Shown one piece after another: positions 37,666 to 46,871 of a stretch of 64,000 nucleotides of DNA (position 1 is the stretch's first letter; each line of letters begins with the position of its first letter). Position numbers and translations under genes: made by a program. The notes under the pieces were generated by a model. The model made no database searches, was not told the origin of the DNA, and was given only the letters and a program-made list of their open reading frames with translations. Where the stretch lies: assembly GCA_030681675.1 (NCBI GenBank), contig JAUXRP010000040.1:124001-188000 (forward strand), written 5' to 3'. The DNA is from Candidatus Planktophila sp. Lineage in GTDB: Bacteria; Actinomycetota; Actinomycetes; Nanopelagicales; Nanopelagicaceae.

Positions 37666-37738
37666 GCGCGCGTAGCTCAACGGATAGAGCATCTGACTTC
37701 GGATCAGAAGGTTGGGGGTTCGAGTCCCTCCGCGCGCA
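37666..37738 (+). tRNA. tRNA-Arg(TCG)
   Basis: This 73-base tRNA has acceptor strands GCGCGCG and CGCGCGC and discriminator A. The D arm GCTCAACGGATAGAGC and anticodon stem TCTGA/TCAGA equal those of tRNA-Arg(ACG) at 18473. The anticodon loop CTTCGGA gives anticodon TCG. The T arm is GGGGGTTCGAGTCCC. CCA is not encoded. Confidence 0.97.
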
Positions 37739-37768
37739 CAGTGTGATGTCTCGGACAAAAATGTTTTT

Positions 37769-38335
37769 TTAGGAGTTTATTGACCACAAGTTAATTATCT
37801 CCTGGGCTTTATTCGCACCGAAAAAAATCGATACCCACGCTCCTATTAGCAAGTAGGGGCCAAATGGAATTAGCGTTTTTCTGTTGGCTTTTTTGCTCAC
37901 CAATAAAATTAGCCCACATGCTCCCCCCAAGATAAAAGCCACAATAAAACCCATGACTAATACGGGCCAACCAAAGGGAGCAATTAATGCCCCCAGCATT
38001 ATTGCGAGTTTTACATCACCCATTCCCATTCCGCCGCGCGAGAAAAGATAAAGCACTAAGAAAGCACTTCCCGTAAGTAGGGCAACACTCAAAGTGTGTA
38101 TTACTGGTCCGAGACTGCTTTCCTTTATAGCTAGAATTATTGAAACTCCAAGACCTGCAATGAACCCCGTAGAGGTAAACGAGTTTGGCAGTCTGTGCTC
38201 TTTGATATCTGTAACCACAAGAGGCACAGTTACGGTAGCTAGTGCAATTAGGGATAGTAACTGGATAGACCAGCCAGTAACTAAGTACGAAGCCACATAT
38301 AATAGGAAAGTTGCAGGAATCACAATTTTAGCCAT
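37769..38335 (-). CDS. Prepilin peptidase, A24 family (TadV/CpaA-like)
   Basis: This 188-residue membrane peptidase has about six helices. The aspartate protease motifs are DIKEHRLPN in the first half and GMGMGDVKLAIMLG, with the GxGD active site, in the second. It should cleave the leader of the Flp pilin encoded across the divergent gap. It lacks the N-terminal methyltransferase domain of larger PilD enzymes, as TadV proteins do. It diverges from flp and the rest of the Tad locus, with 160 bases between them. Confidence 0.92.
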   Translation of the reverse strand: MAKIVIPATFLLYVASYLVTGWSIQLLSLIALATVTVPLVVTDIKEHRLPNSFTSTGFIAGLGVSIILAIKESSLGPVIHTLSVALLTGSAFLVLYLFSRGGMGMGDVKLAIMLGALIAPFGWPVLVMGFIVAFILGGACGLILLVSKKANRKTLIPFGPYLLIGAWVSIFFGANKAQEIINLWSINS

Positions 38336-38495: not shown

Positions 38496-38753
38496 ATGAC
38501 AGGCTTTATTGTTAAAGGGATTATCACGGCCAATCAGGTTCTTGAAGGATTGAAAACTAAAGTTGAATCCATACATTCTGATGAGCGTGGAGTCACTGCT
38601 GTTGAATATGCGCTCATAGTTGGTTTGATCGCTATCGTGATTATCGGTGCGGTTACATTACTTGGAACAAGTGTATCAAATCTATTTGCCAGGGCACGTT
38701 GCGCAGTAGTTGGTGGGGTTTGGACTGCCGCAACGAATACCTGCAGTATTTAA
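38496..38753 (+). CDS. flp: Flp-type pilin
   Basis: This 85-residue type IVb pilin has the processing and assembly region DERGVTAVEYALIVGLIAIVIIGAV: cleavage after Gly, with Glu at position 5 of the mature part. The hydrophobic helix forms the fibre core. Two cysteines in the C-terminal part (RARCAVVG, NTCSI) could make a disulfide loop, unlike shorter Flp pilins. AGGAGG at 38481-38486 favours ATG 38496 over the in-frame GTG at 38487. It is the first gene of the Tad operon. Confidence 0.93.
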   Translation: MTGFIVKGIITANQVLEGLKTKVESIHSDERGVTAVEYALIVGLIAIVIIGAVTLLGTSVSNLFARARCAVVGGVWTAATNTCSI

Positions 38754-38774
38754 GTTTGAATTCTAGCTTTCGAA

Positions 38775-38824
38775 AAGGTTCTTCCTTTCGTGTTAAACAT
38801 ATTAAAAATACAAGGAAGAACCTT
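38775..38824 (+). repeat. Inverted repeat enclosing the tadE start codon
   Basis: AAGGTTCTTCCTT (38775-38787) and AAGGAAGAACCTT (38812-38824) are perfect 13-base inverted arms with a 24-base loop. The likely GTG start of tadE (38790) lies in the loop, and the only AAGG-like ribosome site is in the left arm. A folded message would hide that site. This could lower tadE expression relative to flp. Confidence 0.7.
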
Positions 38825-39257
38825 CTCTGACACTAAAGGCGTAGCAGCAGTTGAATTTGCACTTGTATTGCCCTTACTTCTACTACTTATAGTTTCACTC
38901 ATAGATTTTGGACGTATTTTTTTCGTCCAAATAAGCATTACGAGTGCGAGCAGAGAGGGAGTTAGGTTGAGTTCGTTGTATAGCAATGGAACCCCTACCC
39001 CTCAGAACGTCATAGATTTAGTAAATTCAAGTGCTCCAGGAGCTGCGGTTTTATCTCAACTTGCAAACGTAGCCGCTTTGACTGTAGTCCAAACGCCCTG
39101 TTCAACAACTACTTTAAATGAAAATACTACGGTTGATGTTTCGACTAATTTCAAATGGTTACTACCGGTCGGGGTATTGACGCTTGTCTCCCCAAATTCA
39201 ACACTTGCCAATGACTTCACAATTCGATCAAGAGGAGTTATGAGATGCGTTGGATAA
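38790..39257 (+). CDS. tadE: TadE-like minor pilin
   Basis: This 155-residue protein has the TadE signature near its start: DTKGVAAVEFALVLPLLLLLIVSLIDFGRIFF. It acts as a pseudopilin in the Tad pilus and is processed by the prepilin peptidase. The only sensible start in frame is GTG 38790, in the loop of a strong inverted repeat. The C-terminal half is rich in Thr, Asn and Ser, as in many actinobacterial TadE proteins. It overlaps the next gene by 13 bases. Confidence 0.9.
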   Translation: MLNILKIQGRTFSDTKGVAAVEFALVLPLLLLLIVSLIDFGRIFFVQISITSASREGVRLSSLYSNGTPTPQNVIDLVNSSAPGAAVLSQLANVAALTVVQTPCSTTTLNENTTVDVSTNFKWLLPVGVLTLVSPNSTLANDFTIRSRGVMRCVG

Positions 39258-40444
39258 AGGGTAAGAGCGAATCAGGAACAATCGCTCTTATTGTCGCAAT
39301 TCTTGTTTCTTCTTCGCTAGTTATTGGAATGTTTGTGATCGTGGCAGATACCGGCTCTTTATTTTCAGAAAGGCGGGTAATTCAAAATGCCGCAGATGCT
39401 GCAAGTTTGGCACTTGCCAGAGAGTGCGCCAATCTCGGAAATGGTGTCATAGATGGAGTTAGTTCTGGCTACTCAGGCCCGGTTTGTACTAGCCCTATAG
39501 ATGCTAAAGATTTTGCCCAAAAATACGCAAACCTTAACTCCCCAGATTCACTTACAGATGTAATTGAGGTGTGCGGGCAATCCCCACTAAATTCATGTTC
39601 TAGTAATTCGGGGGCGATATTTGACTGCAAAACTGTTGATCTTAAATATTTAAACTATATTCGAGTCACTACTTCAACTAGAACAACGCAAGGTACTTCT
39701 ATAGAGAATGTTTTTTCCAATATTTTAAATCAAAATGACGCTGGTACAACCGTTCCTGGCTGTGCACAAAGCGCCTGGGGTAAATCTAGTTTTGCTCCAA
39801 TTTTTTTCCCAATGGCTCTTCCAATCTGCGATTACGCATTGGGAGGGACGAGAATTATTAAAAGCTTTTCCTCTAATGACCCTGTCGTTACTGGTGGATG
39901 CACAGTTACAGATTTAAATGGGGTCAATTTTTATTATGCCTCACCTACAAAAGGCTTCAGTTTGTTAGCAAATATTGGCTGTCCGGGTGTGACTTCGCAG
40001 CAAAGTGTCAGGGTGGCTGACTTACTGACTTCCGAACCCTCGCTCTTACAGGTGGAGAAGCCATGTTCAGATATCGGCTTAAATTTTTATTCCCAAGTTT
40101 CGAGCTTCATCAATGTAACTCTCTTCGTACCAGTAGTTACAAGCGTTATATGTTCAAGTACAAGCGTCAACTGTCAAGGAAGTTACCAATTCGAAGTTGC
40201 AAGCTTCTTTGCATTCAAGCTATTGGGTTTGAGATTCAAGAACTCTGGATTAGCAGGGGTAACTCCTGCATGCCCAACTAATGAAATATGTGAGAGCAGC
40301 ACGAATTATTGGCCTTCCTACTGCGATAGCACGGCCTTCTGTGTTTACGGTACATTTGAACGTGCAGCTGCACCCGGTGCAGATGTTTCGACAGATCCAA
40401 ATTTTCCATCAATCGGAGCTCAAGCAATCCAACTACTTCCATGA
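39245..40444 (+). CDS. TadE/TadG-like pilus-assembly protein
   Basis: This 399-residue protein starts with a Tad-type segment: SGTIALIVAILVSSSLVIGMFVIVADTG, then the very typical RRVIQNAADAASLALARECA. The long remainder is predicted outside the cell and has many cysteines (over ten, including CSSNSGAIFDC and CESSTNYWPSYCDSTAFC), suggesting several disulfides. No von Willebrand domain is present, unlike TadG of proteobacteria; that domain is found instead on the TadB-like protein at 43677. Confidence 0.85.
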   Translation: MRWIKGKSESGTIALIVAILVSSSLVIGMFVIVADTGSLFSERRVIQNAADAASLALARECANLGNGVIDGVSSGYSGPVCTSPIDAKDFAQKYANLNSPDSLTDVIEVCGQSPLNSCSSNSGAIFDCKTVDLKYLNYIRVTTSTRTTQGTSIENVFSNILNQNDAGTTVPGCAQSAWGKSSFAPIFFPMALPICDYALGGTRIIKSFSSNDPVVTGGCTVTDLNGVNFYYASPTKGFSLLANIGCPGVTSQQSVRVADLLTSEPSLLQVEKPCSDIGLNFYSQVSSFINVTLFVPVVTSVICSSTSVNCQGSYQFEVASFFAFKLLGLRFKNSGLAGVTPACPTNEICESSTNYWPSYCDSTAFCVYGTFERAAAPGADVSTDPNFPSIGAQAIQLLP

Positions 40445-40461
40445 GAAAAGGAAATTGCTAG

Positions 40462-41160
40462 ATGAAAAAAGTGATATTCAGTGCAAAGAAGGGCAATCTA
40501 CAACTACTCGGAATATTGCTACTTTCAGTACTGACTGCCACCATCATATTCGTTTACACAGCAGGTATTGAATCCAGAATTACATCGCAGCAGGAATTAA
40601 TTCCAACTCTTATAGTGGGGCAACCCATCCCTGTTGGGACATCGTTAGGCACTGCATTTAGCAGTGGGTTAATTCAGATTACGCAAGTTCCGCGCCAATC
40701 TTTGCCCCCTTTTGCCATAACAAGTGTCAATGATTCAAATGGAGCACTTGTAGCACTCAATGAACTTCATCCCGGCCAGTTTGTGACCACGCCAAATTTT
40801 GGTGAAAAAGCTACAAATACCTCAGCTCTTAAAGTCCCACAGGGAATGCTTGCAGTAACTGTGATGATTGGAGAACCTGAAAAAGTTGGCTCTTTTCTAC
40901 AACCAGGTTCAGAGATTGCAATTTTTGGAACTAAGGAGGGTACTTCTGGGGCAAGAATCACAAGTGTTCTTTTTCCCCAAATTACAGTTCTTGCTATTGG
41001 GAATCAAATTCATGCCGATACTTCCGGTCAGGTCCCAGCAACCTCATCGGTATTGATTACAGTAGCAGTTACTCCTGAACAGGCACTAAAACTAATACAC
41101 GCAACAAGAACTGAAAATCTTTACTTTGCTCTACGCTCAGATGGAGTTGAGATAAAGTGA
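40462..41160 (+). CDS. cpaB: CpaB/RcpC-like Flp pilus-assembly protein
   Basis: This 232-residue protein has one N-terminal membrane helix (LLGILLLSVLTATIIFVYTAG). A SAF-like domain follows with LIVGQPIPVGTSLGTAF and LHPGQFVTTPNFG, then the RcpC domain with GMLAVTVMIGEPEKVGSFLQPGSEIAIFGT. In Gram-negative bacteria CpaB works with the outer-membrane secretin. Here there is no secretin, and it may connect with the cell wall. It overlaps tadZ by 4 bases. Confidence 0.87.
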   Translation: MKKVIFSAKKGNLQLLGILLLSVLTATIIFVYTAGIESRITSQQELIPTLIVGQPIPVGTSLGTAFSSGLIQITQVPRQSLPPFAITSVNDSNGALVALNELHPGQFVTTPNFGEKATNTSALKVPQGMLAVTVMIGEPEKVGSFLQPGSEIAIFGTKEGTSGARITSVLFPQITVLAIGNQIHADTSGQVPATSSVLITVAVTPEQALKLIHATRTENLYFALRSDGVEIK

Positions 41161-42326
41161 CCATAGTATTGACAGATGGAACTGATGATGTTCAACGCTA
41201 TCAATTCACCTTAGGAGAAAAAGTCGATGTGACGGACTCAGTCACTGAACTATACGATTTGATTTCCAAGAAGCCAGAAGAAAAATTAATTATTATTGGC
41301 CCAAATATTAAATTGGATACAGCAAGATCTATCGGCGTACATTTTAGGCTTGAACGCCCTGACATTGGTGTAATTCTCATACGCAAGAGAATAGAGATCG
41401 GTATTCTTACAGAGGCACTTCGGGCTGGGCTGCGGGAAGTAATTAGTAGCGAGGATGCTGGTGCATTGGTTGCAGCATGTAAACGATCACTCACTATTTC
41501 ACAACAGATTATTGAGAACTCCACGCATGAAGGGCCGAGCACGACACAGGGAAAAGTCCTTATTGTTTTCTCTGCAAAAGGTGGGTGTGGGAAAACAACA
41601 ACGGCTATAAATTTGGCGTATGCCTTAAGTTCGGACGTCAAAGCGAAAGTAGTGCTACTTGATTTTGACCTTCAATTTGGCGACGTTGCTATAGCTTTGC
41701 AAATTGATCCAAAGAAAACTATAAGTGATGCAATAAGTATGCAGAATAATATAGATGAATTAGGAATTCAATCACTACTAATTAATCAAGAAGACAACCT
41801 AGATATTCTTTTAGCGCCAACCAATCCAACGGATATAGAATTTATTAGCGCAAAATTGGCTGAGAATTTAATAGATAAGCTAAGACAGAGTTACGACTAC
41901 ATAATTGTCGATTCCCCGCCCGCCTTTACCGACGTTATACTACAGGTCTTCGATATGGCAGATCGCTGTTTCCTACTTACTACATTAGATATGCCAGCAA
42001 TAAAAAATTTGAGATTGGTGAAAAACACACTTGAAGCATTAAGTATTCCTAAATCAAAACTTGAGTACGTATTAAATAAAAGTGACTTGAGAGCCGGCCT
42101 CGGAATCGCAGAGGCAGAGGAGATGATCGGAGCACCATTTTCAGTTCAAATTCCATCTAGTGTGGAGGTTTCAGTATCAACAAATAAGGGTGTTCCAATC
42201 GTGCTAGACAGTCCACAAAATCCGGTGAGCAAAGCTTATATTTTCCTTGCTAGAAGCACAGATCGCCGTTTCCGCCGCAATAAAACTGTCGAGAAACCCA
42301 AATTCTTCTTAAGGAGAAATCGATGA
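41157..42326 (+). CDS. tadZ: TadZ/CpaE-like ATPase
   Basis: This 389-residue protein has an N-terminal receiver-like domain (about 1-125) without a clear phospho-acceptor set. It is followed by a MinD/ParA ATPase domain. The deviant Walker A motif is VFSAKGGCGKTTTAINLAYA, with VVLLDFDLQFGDVAIAL and YIIVDSPPAFTDV. TadZ proteins place the pilus machine at a cell position. It overlaps cpaB and tadA by 4 bases each. Confidence 0.92.
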   Translation: MTIVLTDGTDDVQRYQFTLGEKVDVTDSVTELYDLISKKPEEKLIIIGPNIKLDTARSIGVHFRLERPDIGVILIRKRIEIGILTEALRAGLREVISSEDAGALVAACKRSLTISQQIIENSTHEGPSTTQGKVLIVFSAKGGCGKTTTAINLAYALSSDVKAKVVLLDFDLQFGDVAIALQIDPKKTISDAISMQNNIDELGIQSLLINQEDNLDILLAPTNPTDIEFISAKLAENLIDKLRQSYDYIIVDSPPAFTDVILQVFDMADRCFLLTTLDMPAIKNLRLVKNTLEALSIPKSKLEYVLNKSDLRAGLGIAEAEEMIGAPFSVQIPSSVEVSVSTNKGVPIVLDSPQNPVSKAYIFLARSTDRRFRRNKTVEKPKFFLRRNR

Positions 42327-43684
42327 GCCTTTCCAAACGCTTACAGCCGGGAGATCCAACTGAGGCAAAATCCTTTCCGAATATTGAAACATTGAGAGAA
42401 AGAATAGAAACTCTTCCTATCGAAGAGGAGGATAATCAACATCTTAAAAACCGGGTTCTTGAAAAACTAATACAATCTCTCGGTCAACAGCTTTATTCTG
42501 GACAAATTGAAGATGCAGTCCTTGAACAGCACGTATATGAAGCCATTGCTGATGTTTTCTCAGTTAGCGAACGCTCTCTTACAAGTTATGACAGAGCAAC
42601 TCTGGTGCAGCAGATTACCGATGAGATTTTGGGACTTGGGCCATTACAATCATTACTCCGAAACTCAGAGATAACTGAAGTGATGGTAAAGAGATTCGAT
42701 CAGATTTTTATTGAAAAAGGTGGTCGAATTTTGCAATCTGAACTTAAATTTAGTTCGGAGGAACACCTGCGCCGGACAATCGAAAGAATTGTAAGTCAGG
42801 TTGGTAGAAGAATTGACGAATCGAGTCCAATGGTTGATGCTCGCTTACAAGATGGAAGCCGAATAAACGCAGTTGTACCACCAATTGCAATTGATGGTTC
42901 AACAATCACAATTAGAAAATTCTCACAGGATCCATTTACCAGTAAAGATTTAATCGCAATTGGAACTATAAGTATCGACGCAATGAATTTTCTGGCAAGT
43001 TGCATACAGGCAAAGTACAATATTGTGATTAGTGGAGGAACTGGATCGGGTAAAACAACCACTCTCAATGTTCTCTCCTCTTATATAGGTAAAGACGAAA
43101 GAATTATTACAATTGAGGATGCTGCAGAATTACAGTTACCTCAGGAACACGTAATTCGTCTTGAGTCTCGCCCTCTTAATACCGAGGGGAAAGGCATTAT
43201 TACCATTCGAGATTTAGTGAGAAATGCTTTGAGAATGCGCCCAGATCGAATAGTCGTAGGAGAAGTTCGTGACGGAGCGGCCTTAGACATGCTGCAAGCG
43301 ATGAACACGGGCCATGAAGGATCATTAACAACTGTGCACGCAAACACTTCTAGGGATGCACTAATGCGTATTGAAACTATGGCACTTATGGCCGGTATGG
43401 ATCTTCCAGTGGAGGTGATCCGTCAACAAATAGTGGGATCGATTGACATTATTGTTCAACAAAGTCGCATGCGCGATGGATCGCGCCGCATTACTCAAAT
43501 AAGCGAAGTAGTAGGTCTAGAGGCCAACGTGATTCAGATGCAGGATCTCTATACCTTTAAACACAATCAAAATCCAAAATCCCCACATCCGGGAGAGTTA
43601 GTGTCTACCGGTTTATTAGTCAATCAAGGAAGTCACAGATCTGTGATTAACTCAACTCCCACAAAGCAAAGCGATAATGCGTAA
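42323..43684 (+). CDS. tadA: TadA/CpaF-type secretion ATPase
   Basis: This 453-residue VirB11-like ATPase powers pilus assembly. It shows Walker A VISGGTGSGKTTTLNVLSS, the Asp box ITIEDAAELQL, VRNALRMRPDRIVVGEVRDG with Walker B, and HEGSLTTVHANTSRDAL. The N-terminal part, including LGLGPLQSLLRNSEITEVMV, is typical of CpaF. It overlaps tadZ by 4 bases and the vWA-TadB gene by 8 bases. Confidence 0.94.
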   Translation: MSLSKRLQPGDPTEAKSFPNIETLRERIETLPIEEEDNQHLKNRVLEKLIQSLGQQLYSGQIEDAVLEQHVYEAIADVFSVSERSLTSYDRATLVQQITDEILGLGPLQSLLRNSEITEVMVKRFDQIFIEKGGRILQSELKFSSEEHLRRTIERIVSQVGRRIDESSPMVDARLQDGSRINAVVPPIAIDGSTITIRKFSQDPFTSKDLIAIGTISIDAMNFLASCIQAKYNIVISGGTGSGKTTTLNVLSSYIGKDERIITIEDAAELQLPQEHVIRLESRPLNTEGKGIITIRDLVRNALRMRPDRIVVGEVRDGAALDMLQAMNTGHEGSLTTVHANTSRDALMRIETMALMAGMDLPVEVIRQQIVGSIDIIVQQSRMRDGSRRITQISEVVGLEANVIQMQDLYTFKHNQNPKSPHPGELVSTGLLVNQGSHRSVINSTPTKQSDNA

Positions 43685-45290
43685 AAAATATCGGTTTTTT
43701 ATCCTCTCTCTTTTTCTCGGCATTATAATGAGTGCAGGTCTGCCACACATCCATGCAGTGGAGCACAACAAAAATTCTATATTTTTTTTGATCGATGTAA
43801 GTGGTTCCATGAACGGGACCAAAATCAATGCAGTTAAAAATGCAATTACATCGATTATTACAGTTCTGCCCACCAATGTAGATGCAGGAATTATTATCTT
43901 TAGTAGAAAGGCAACTCTGCTCGTTCCGCTTACCAAAAATCGGCAACCTCTTTTGCAAGCAGTAATAAATTTAAAAGTGCAAGGTGAGACGGCCTTATTT
44001 GATGCAGTTAAGCTTGGTTTAGAAAGCGCTCCACAGGTAGGTAAGTCACGCATAATTCTCTTAACCGACGGGGAGGATACGGTTAGTAAAGAAAGTGCAG
44101 GCAATCTTCTAACTACATTGGCGCTTCGAGGGATACCGGTAGATTCAATAGGTTTACAAACCACTTCACAGCAAGGCAAAACCTTACAATCAATATCTGA
44201 CTCAAGTGATGGAGTTTTCTATCCATTAAGTGAGGTGAGTAAATTAATAGAGGTTTACCAGAAAAGCCTCACTACAATTCTAAAACCAACTCTCACACCA
44301 TCGACAGTAACGGTACCTATTGAGTACACTGGGACCAATTGGCGTTTCATCCCATATTTAATTTCGTTTTCAATGTTTTTTCTCACATTTCTCTTTCTTC
44401 TTCTCATTCGTAAAAATTTAGGTGACAAGCGAAATCGCCGAAACCGTTGGGGAGCCCTTGAAACTCATACAATTCAAAAGGTAAGTAATCAACATATTGC
44501 AAAAATTAGGAAAAATTTAAATTTTGATGCTCTCCCTCCTAGATTTGTACGGTGGATAAATATTCGTCTTGAACTAATTCACAGCGAGGTATCCTTTGAG
44601 CGAGTTGTAAAAATTCTTTGCGTACTCTCCATTGTATTATTCTTTCTAGGGTGGTCCATATTTTCCAATGTGTTTGTTGCCGTAATCATGGCCATACTTT
44701 TAACACCATACCTCTTTGCCAAGTATGTAAAGAGAAGACATAAGAAACAGATTCGACTTTTTGCAGAAGAGCTCCCTGATTTACTAAATATTGTGGCAAG
44801 TGCCCTGAGATCAGGGCTAACTCTTCAACAAGGACTTGAGGCTTTTACTCTGGATAACAAGGGAGAGGTAGCGCGGCAGATTCGACGAGCCACTTCTGAG
44901 ATTCAAATGGGTACAACGGCGGAGGATGCCTTAATGAGTATTGCAGTGCGAATGAATAACGAAGATTTAAAGTGGACCGTAACTGCCTTATCAATTCAAA
45001 GAAATGTTGGTGGAAGTCTCGCAACTATTTTGGGGACTACGTATACGACCGTAAAAGAGAGAGCAGAAATTAGACGAGAAGTTCGTACTCTCTCAGCTGA
45101 GGGAAAACTTTCAGCATATATATTGATGGCATTACCTATTGGAATATTTAGTTTTCTATTTCTAACAAAAAGAGAGTACGTGAGAATTTTCTGGACAGAG
45201 GCGGTTGGTCTTCTACTTTTGGGAGTAATAGCATTAGCTTTATCAATTGGTTGGCTGTGGATTAAGAAGATTATAGAGATAAAAATATAA
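43677..45290 (+). CDS. tadB: Fusion of von Willebrand A domain and TadB-type platform protein
   Basis: This 537-residue protein opens with a signal or anchor helix. A vWA domain follows at about residues 34-200, with the metal-site motif DVSGSMNGTK, a central Thr in GETALFDAVKLGL and LLTDGEDTV. A membrane helix near 220-245 leads to a cytoplasmic T2SSF/TadB domain (EELPDLLNIVASALRSGLTLQQGLEAF). The last helices end the protein. TadB is normally about 300 residues. The vWA part would lie outside, where it may bind a pilin or wall component. No stop or frameshift divides the two parts. Confidence 0.9.
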   Translation: MRKKYRFFILSLFLGIIMSAGLPHIHAVEHNKNSIFFLIDVSGSMNGTKINAVKNAITSIITVLPTNVDAGIIIFSRKATLLVPLTKNRQPLLQAVINLKVQGETALFDAVKLGLESAPQVGKSRIILLTDGEDTVSKESAGNLLTTLALRGIPVDSIGLQTTSQQGKTLQSISDSSDGVFYPLSEVSKLIEVYQKSLTTILKPTLTPSTVTVPIEYTGTNWRFIPYLISFSMFFLTFLFLLLIRKNLGDKRNRRNRWGALETHTIQKVSNQHIAKIRKNLNFDALPPRFVRWINIRLELIHSEVSFERVVKILCVLSIVLFFLGWSIFSNVFVAVIMAILLTPYLFAKYVKRRHKKQIRLFAEELPDLLNIVASALRSGLTLQQGLEAFTLDNKGEVARQIRRATSEIQMGTTAEDALMSIAVRMNNEDLKWTVTALSIQRNVGGSLATILGTTYTTVKERAEIRREVRTLSAEGKLSAYILMALPIGIFSFLFLTKREYVRIFWTEAVGLLLLGVIALALSIGWLWIKKIIEIKI

Positions 45291-46447
45291 TGAGACTGCA
45301 GAGCTTCCTAGTCAGTTTTGTTGTCGCTGTCGCCTCATTTACTGTGGTGTACTGGGGGCTTACGTATTTTTCAAAAAATTTTTCGGCAACACGTTTGAGG
45401 ATACGGCGTAAGTACCTGATTAATGCTTATGTGGTGGGCGATAAGCCACGAAGGATACAAAAACCTCCTGTACAAATTTCAACAGCCATAAAGCTATTTG
45501 AAAACTATGGTAACCGAATTATTAGGGACCAGTATAAGAATCGACTCCAAACTTTGATTACCAATTCAGGTGTTATTGGAAGCGAGGGTTTCACTTCCTT
45601 AGTCCGCCGTAAATTGGCTTTCTCATTGGTGGGCTTCGGAATTAGTTTCTTACTTCTCTTATTTAAAACGACCTCAGCCATCCCGTTAGTTTTGGCTTTT
45701 TTTGTTTTCGGGTATTTTTTGCCAAATTTGGAGGAGATCGGCAAACGGATTATTTGGCGAGAGTATAAGACAAAACTGGAAAATCTGTTGAGTAGCGCGG
45801 GCGATTGGGAATCTAGCCATTACTTTACTTTAATTAAGCGAAAACTTGTTTTTTCATTTTTTGCCTTAATTATTTCATATTTCTATCTACTGACCAAGAG
45901 TCAGAGCTTTAGTGTTTTACCCCTTAGCCTTTTTTTGATTTCTTTGGGGTTTTTTATGCCGGATATTCTTTTGCAAAACAGAGTTTTAAAGCGTAAGGAA
46001 CTCATCGCCCAATCGTTACCTGATGCAATTGATATGCTCTTAATGTGCGTCAGTGCCGGATTAGCATTTCCGGCTGCCCTTACTAAGGTGGCTGAAACAC
46101 AGTCAGGGCCAGTGGCTGATGAGTTTTCGCGCGTTACCAAAGAAGTGCAACTAGGTCAGTCACGCACTGACGCATTAAATGCAATGGCGCAAAGAACTAA
46201 TGAAATACACGTTCAAAGATTTGTAGGCGCTATGGTTCAAGTTGATAGGTTTGGTATTCCGGTATCGAGTGTTCTAGAAGAACAGTCGAAGGAAATGCGT
46301 GCGGCCCGCCGAGAGTCAGCGCGAGAGCAAGGCCAGAAAGTGCCGTTGAAAATTTTGGCACCAATCATGTTATTTTTTTTACCATGTGTTCTAATTATTA
46401 TTCTAGGTCCAGCCATATTGGGAATTATTCGCACATTTTCAACTTAA
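45290..46447 (+). CDS. tadC: TadC-type platform protein with a duplicated helical module
   Basis: This 385-residue membrane protein has the T2SSF domain in its C-terminal half: QSLPDAIDMLLMCVSAGLAFPAAL and RFGIPVSSVLEEQSKEMRAARRESAREQ. Before it are two tandem copies of about 75 residues, at about 76-150 and 153-228. Both start RII-x-x-(Q/E)YK, both hold FTxLxRRKL- or FTLIKRKL-like sequence, and both end in FLP or FMP. Normal TadC has only the second. It shares a base with the tadB gene. It should form the inner-membrane platform together with TadB. Confidence 0.9.
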   Translation: MRLQSFLVSFVVAVASFTVVYWGLTYFSKNFSATRLRIRRKYLINAYVVGDKPRRIQKPPVQISTAIKLFENYGNRIIRDQYKNRLQTLITNSGVIGSEGFTSLVRRKLAFSLVGFGISFLLLLFKTTSAIPLVLAFFVFGYFLPNLEEIGKRIIWREYKTKLENLLSSAGDWESSHYFTLIKRKLVFSFFALIISYFYLLTKSQSFSVLPLSLFLISLGFFMPDILLQNRVLKRKELIAQSLPDAIDMLLMCVSAGLAFPAALTKVAETQSGPVADEFSRVTKEVQLGQSRTDALNAMAQRTNEIHVQRFVGAMVQVDRFGIPVSSVLEEQSKEMRAARRESAREQGQKVPLKILAPIMLFFLPCVLIIILGPAILGIIRTFST

Positions 46448-46607: not shown

Positions 46608-46647
46608 TGCCCCCTAAGTGATATCATATGATATCACTTAGGGGGCA
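46608..46647. promoter_or_regulatory. Perfect 40-bp palindrome upstream of vapB
   Basis: The left half reads TGCCCCCTAAGTGATATCAT, and the right half (46628-46647) is its exact reverse complement, with no loop. It ends 2 bases before the vapB ATG and includes the GGGGG ribosome site. Toxin-antitoxin operons are normally repressed by their own complex at such sites, so this is the probable vapBC operator. The site can also fold in the message and hide the ribosome site. Confidence 0.85.
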
Positions 46648-46649
46648 AT

Positions 46650-46871
46650 ATGGCCGATTTATTGATTCGCAACCTCAGCCTTGAGGTTTTGCAGGATCTC
46701 GATATAAAGGCGGCTAATCTGGGAATTTCACGTGCTGAATATGTCCGACGAACATTGACGCAAATAAGTGCTTCTTCCATTGAATCGGTGACTGAACAGC
46801 ATCTTAAAAACCTCATTGCGTTATTACCCGATTTAGCTAATGAGGAGATTATGGATGGAGCATGGCGGTAA
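46650..46871 (+). CDS. vapB: VapB/FitA-type ribbon-helix-helix antitoxin
   Basis: This 73-residue protein starts with a DNA-binding strand (ADLLIRNLSLEVLQDLDIKA) followed by GISRAEYVRRTLTQ, the ribbon-helix-helix pattern of FitA-type antitoxins. The C-terminal tail (LLPDLANEEIMDGAWR) should block the toxin's active site. It overlaps the toxin gene by 10 bases. With the toxin it probably binds the palindrome just upstream. Confidence 0.88.
   Translation: MADLLIRNLSLEVLQDLDIKAANLGISRAEYVRRTLTQISASSIESVTEQHLKNLIALLPDLANEEIMDGAWR

Follow-up and report, generated by a model that had tools for sequence, protein, structure and literature searches.

The inverted repeat that separates the pilin gene flp from tadE is more than a chance occurrence. 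It specifies a hairpin that closely follows the flp stop codon, is restricted to flp ends, has arms that covary among relatives and encloses the start codon of tadE; the ribosome binding site of flp is strong and that of tadE weak. The reading that we favor, with a probability of roughly 0.55, is that this post-flp hairpin acts as a 3'-end barrier for flp, possibly with partial termination, to which a lowered initiation of tadE would have been added in this genus. Its effects on RNA decay, termination and translation, and the protein ratio resulting from them, are predictions. Tad pili require many Flp subunits and few copies of TadE, encoded by neighboring genes. If the hairpin sets their ratio, a machine that is widespread and serves adhesion and DNA uptake would follow a compact rule open to testing, and a start codon and a regulatory RNA would be seen to occupy the same bases yet co-vary.

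The window, that is, the whole 64-kb stretch of DNA analyzed, is part of a 1.83-Mb genome (G000) whose host, judging from its named relatives, is an actinomycete. Its tad locus looks complete, from flp through two T2SSF genes, all on the forward strand. The first gene, flp (38496..38753), encodes an Flp/Fap pilin of 85 aa (PF04964) and has a strong Shine-Dalgarno (SD) sequence, TTTAGGAGG. Then come tadE, coding for a minor pilin-like protein (38790..39257, PF07811), a TadE/G-like gene (39245..40444, PF13400), rcpC/cpaB (40462..41160, PF16976) and a tadZ/cpaE-like gene for a ParA ATPase (41157..42326), named from its domain and position. The remaining three genes, also with inferred names, are tadA/cpaF for an ATPase (42323..43684, PF00437), a tadB-like gene for a T2SSF protein with a fused N-terminal VWA (von Willebrand A) domain (43677..45290), and a tadC-like gene for another T2SSF protein (45290..46447). 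A prepilin peptidase gene at 37769-38335 is divergent from the tad genes.

A 21-nt spacer (38754..38774, forward strand, as are all elements of the hairpin), with an in-frame TGA at 38757, lies between the flp stop codon and the hairpin. The non-coding left (5') arm, AAGGTTCTTCCTT (38775..38787), and the right (3') arm, AAGGAAGAACCTT (38812..38824), are perfectly complementary over 13 bp. Between them, a loop of 24 nt (38788..38811) holds the GTG start codon of tadE (38790..38792), and the right arm consists of tadE codons as well, specifying a basic N-terminus (QGRT). A preliminary description of this DNA had reported a perfect 13-bp repeat around the tadE start, and both the arms and the placement of the GTG inside the loop proved exact. 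RNA folding of 38740-38860 gave -29.5 kcal/mol (z -2.5), with 3 of 200 shuffles equally good, and none of 2000 dinucleotide shuffles of the 90 nt that follow the flp stop matched the observed stem score. The window holds only 4 perfect inverted repeats with arms of at least 11 bp and 3-40 nt between them. Elsewhere in the genome, the 13-mer arm has no exact copy and one copy with a single mismatch. A known RNA family was considered and discarded, as Rfam returned zero matches above the gathering score for the hairpin; the sub-threshold matches were mostly to microRNA-precursor models.

The Flp pilin was found in 7 of the 135 genomes of the genus, the source genome counted, and the hairpin is present in all seven, with a stem of 13-20 bp, a loop of 12-24 nt and a beginning 14-21 nt past the flp stop. 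In each of them, none of 2000 shuffles of the corresponding 90-nt stretch reached the stem. The letters of the arms vary widely (AAGGTTCTTCCTT in the source genome, AAACACCTCTTCGCATTG in G041, GACGGCGCTTCATTTCCTTT in G237) and are more similar within the pairs G057/G248 and G041/G269. When arms were cross-paired between genomes, a genome's own left and right arms formed the strongest combination of the row in 6/7 cases; the exception is G057, for which the arm of a close relative pairs better than its own by 0.6 kcal/mol. Pair columns had changed on both sides in 13/13 cases with outer anchoring and in 12/13 with inner anchoring, a count that is descriptive and carries no test because the arms had been picked for pairing. 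The stems contain 10 G.U pairs among 114, in a search that permitted G.U and not A.C, and the sense reading gives the longer stem in five genomes, the antisense reading in the source genome (16 vs 13), and one genome shows a tie. Altogether, relatives keep the arms with compensatory changes, and strongly so, in every Flp-bearing genome of the genus.

This structure is not a general property of gene junctions in these loci. At the other co-directional junctions of the same seven loci (ORFs of at least 120 aa, gaps below 100 nt, some junctions lying beyond the tad genes), 0 of 49 reached the lowest flp score, the highest value being 23 vs 31-43 for flp, and the sole value of at least 31 among the 50 entries listed is the flp of G049 itself. 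Two genomes have flp genes in tandem, L186/L189 in G041 and L180/L188 in G269, and there a strong hairpin follows the last copy only. A matching 5' hairpin ahead of flp was dropped as a candidate, since a 5' stem stands out from its locus in just 1/7 genomes of the genus (G057).

Beyond the genus, a comparable stem is absent at both sister-genus loci with flp-tadE (G146 and G319). Among Actinomycetes outside the order, a strong post-flp hairpin follows 44 of 100 flp copies, in 37 of 59 genomes; median values are 5 nt for the loop and 15 nt for the distance from the flp stop to the hairpin. The other 56 copies fall below the threshold. By strong we mean a stem of at least 11 bp, in the top 5% of its locus and starting within 45 nt, a definition that was fixed after the first survey had been seen and outside of which fall several 14-bp stems starting beyond 45 nt. 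The 59 genomes examined belong to 83 with an Flp match, own genus apart. A truncated flp copy of G344 was left out, and of the three loci without the motif in the first survey (L162, L184 and L188), L184 was later counted and the other two were left out. An independent set, with loci located through TadE similarity in named genomes, showed strong hairpins at 20/42 flp ends vs 2/77 tadE ends, and at 19/30 direct flp-tadE junctions with the own genus excluded. In this set, tadE mostly starts downstream of the hairpin, with candidate starts inside it at L064 and L079 and upstream of it at L071 and L075. The class stems, with G.U allowed, are longer in sense in 26 cases and in antisense in 8, with 10 ties; this 26 vs 8 count is the only fair strand comparison, as a G.U-permitting search biases the G.U tally. 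Some of the class hairpins may be plain operon-end terminators, the downstream gene being established for part of them.

We propose that the repeat encodes an RNA hairpin and that, within the tad operon, this hairpin would mark where the abundant flp mRNA has its 3' end. Such a hairpin would form just outside the reach of a ribosome halted at the flp stop codon, block 3'-to-5' decay and, in some members, partly end transcription too. The flp mRNA would then outlast and outnumber the part that encodes tadE, the TadE/G-like gene, cpaB, tadZ, tadA, tadB and tadC. The element and the start of tadE overlap in this genus, with the start codon in the loop and the codons of the TadE N-terminus in the 3' arm, and the same fold probably lowers tadE initiation as well. 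A U-tract (at least 5 T in 8) follows 1/42 hairpins in the class and 3/7 in the genus, and plain intrinsic termination is for this reason a less likely general role. Together with the sense-strand bias, the scarcity of U-tracts matches the protective hairpins of E. coli operons, and we therefore favor a 3'-end barrier. On the opposite side stand the lack of a stem in G146 and G319, the 56/100 class copies below the threshold, the longer antisense stem of the source genome and the absence of a loop start in G237.

Several known systems are comparable. According to a report on differential RNA decay in E. coli, based on RNA data, 26 of 34 stabilized upstream genes have a hairpin lacking a U-tract at their end, 17 of these 26 hairpins lie within the downstream coding sequence, and the embedded structures average 107 nt into it (Dar and Sorek, 2018; PMC5927463). 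The intercistronic 3'-protective hairpins, including those of malE-malF, the puf operon of Rhodobacter capsulatus and the E. coli set, resemble the flp hairpin in being stable, free of a U-tract and placed behind a gene needed in excess; they also frequently lie within the following coding sequence and are conserved in relatives. The flp hairpin agrees with this type in being stable and lying between co-directional genes, in the missing U-tract of the source genome and in its presence in 7/7 genomes of the genus (0/2 among the sister-genus loci). Unlike in the E. coli set, the start codon itself is in the loop here and the letters of the arms turn over widely. The hairpins on either side of hcp4 in the T6SS4 operon of Yersinia pseudotuberculosis likewise concern a subunit with more mRNA than the neighboring genes, made from a polycistronic message with a hairpin behind the gene, in a different machine and phylum (PMC12503267). 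Processing was demonstrated for hcp4; for the flp hairpin it is a prediction. In papBA processing of E. coli, as cited in PMC5927463, RNA structure also secures an excess of the major pilin, but a 5' structure protects the pilin message there, while 5' flp stems are notable in 1/7 genomes of the genus. Among the papers listed by full-text searches, mostly outside subscription journals, none had a title or abstract opening that describes a hairpin behind flp.

The preliminary description had suggested that the hairpin sets the ratio of pilin to assembly proteins. This would still be the best reading of its role, and the processing option that came with it fits better than caging of the start codon; occlusion of an SD sequence and a switch are the parts that found no support. 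A broader version is that the tad loci of Actinomycetes share a general post-pilin hairpin that sets the Flp:machinery ratio, and that in one lineage this hairpin fused with the initiation site of the next gene. One fold would then be both flp decay barrier and tadE brake, and compensatory changes would preserve it despite the constraints imposed by encoding the TadE N-terminus. We offer this generalization tentatively, as one that may well not hold.

Among the alternatives to a 3'-end barrier, the one that survives best is a partial intrinsic terminator, or attenuator, at which most polymerases would stop after flp and a minority would read through to tadE and the rest. Intrinsic (Rho-independent) terminators also have a strong stem after the stop codon, and the 14-21 nt between stop and hairpin suit this explanation. 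The U-rich stretch TATTTTCT behind the stem in G041 and G269 makes it resemble an ordinary terminator and counts against a barrier; G248 has TCTGTTTA, and T is weakly enriched after the class hairpins (0.24 vs 0.15). However, the source hairpin is followed by CTCTGACA, has a long loop with a start codon in it and is not among the terminator-like sites in a search allowing loops of 3-8 only. A plain intrinsic terminator at the source locus was rejected for its missing U-tract, which 41/42 class hairpins lack as well, and the genus loops of 12-24 nt are long for a terminator. Since terminators without a U-tract have been proposed in actinobacteria, attenuation, though unlikely, is far from negligible.

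Less probable still is a translation gate, in which the hairpin would mainly keep the tadE start structured and so provide a low rate of synthesis for TadE, needed in few copies. In the source genome, GTG 38790 is the only ATG, GTG or TTG start for tadE between the in-frame TGA and the TadE motif, and 6/7 genomes of the genus have an ATG or GTG either within the loop or at the margin of the 3' arm, as in start-sequestering structures. The left arm comes after the flp stop and before the likeliest tadE start, and the right arm codes for the basic TadE N-terminus. The loop of G041 holds an in-frame stop, so translation of tadE must start there or later; in G057, G248, G049 and G269, starts upstream of the hairpin are also possible, and the loop start is the likeliest choice, not the sole one. 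The best anti-SD pairing in the source genome is -3.6 kcal/mol before the tadE GTG vs -10.4 for flp. In the six genomes whose tadE can start at the hairpin, the range is -1.1 to -3.6 for tadE, poor in 6/6, whereas flp, at whichever of its starts has the best SD, shows a good -5.8 to -11.9 kcal/mol. Moreover, folding without the left arm and the upstream part raised the unpaired fraction around the start in 5/6 genomes (0.42 to 0.67 in the source genome).

Against a gate, the left arm had no such effect in G248 (0.45 vs 0.44), and G237 has no ATG, GTG or TTG start for tadE at the hairpin. Its frame opens upstream, the candidates being an ATG inside flp, 34 nt ahead of where its stop codon ends, and a TTG 4 nt ahead of that point, overlapping the stop; the tadE start of this locus (L182) is perhaps coupled or unusual. 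Nor does the left arm carry a conserved SD. In the source genome, a weak AAGG in this arm ends 11 nt before the GTG, and the left arms of the other genomes of the genus are pyrimidine-rich and hold no SD. Occlusion of a ribosome site by the left arm is thus not supported. Nor is the earlier reading of the hairpin as a switch, for which neither an alternative structure nor a ligand was seen. The claim that the only plausible tadE start is caged stands for the source genome, but caging is not general, since in the class most tadE genes start past a hairpin that is kept without the start. Because many Actinomycetes show this arrangement, the hairpin is unlikely to have evolved for caging in the first place; caging would be a local twist on an older post-flp feature, surviving as an added effect. 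Read-through from flp to tadE was also discarded: although tadE is in frame with flp in the source genome, TGA 38757 intervenes and the frame relation varies among relatives.

Finally, a repeat due to chance, or one acting as DNA (a cruciform, a palindrome bound by protein or mutational palindrome correction), is very improbable, for although the source stem is perfect as DNA and longer in antisense, chance is ruled out by the shuffles (0/2000 in each genus genome), the repeat count of the window and the junction control, the differing arm letters of the seven hairpins are incompatible with a sequence-specific protein, and the 26 vs 8 strand count and, with the reservation given above, the 10 G.U among 114 pairs speak against a DNA-level element.

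Two observations concern the surroundings of the locus. The patchy occurrence of Flp across the genus (7/135 genomes) suggests that 38496-46447 is an accessory island, and a tRNA-Arg gene (tcg) at 37666-37739 adjoins the tad locus and is a possible insertion point. Past the last tad gene, a perfect palindromic repeat, TGCCCCCTAAGTGATATCATATGATATCACTTAGGGGGCA, is found at 46608-46647, immediately 5' of a gene for a FitA-like RHH antitoxin (46650) whose partner is a PIN-domain gene at 46862; the palindrome is probably the operator of this toxin-antitoxin pair.
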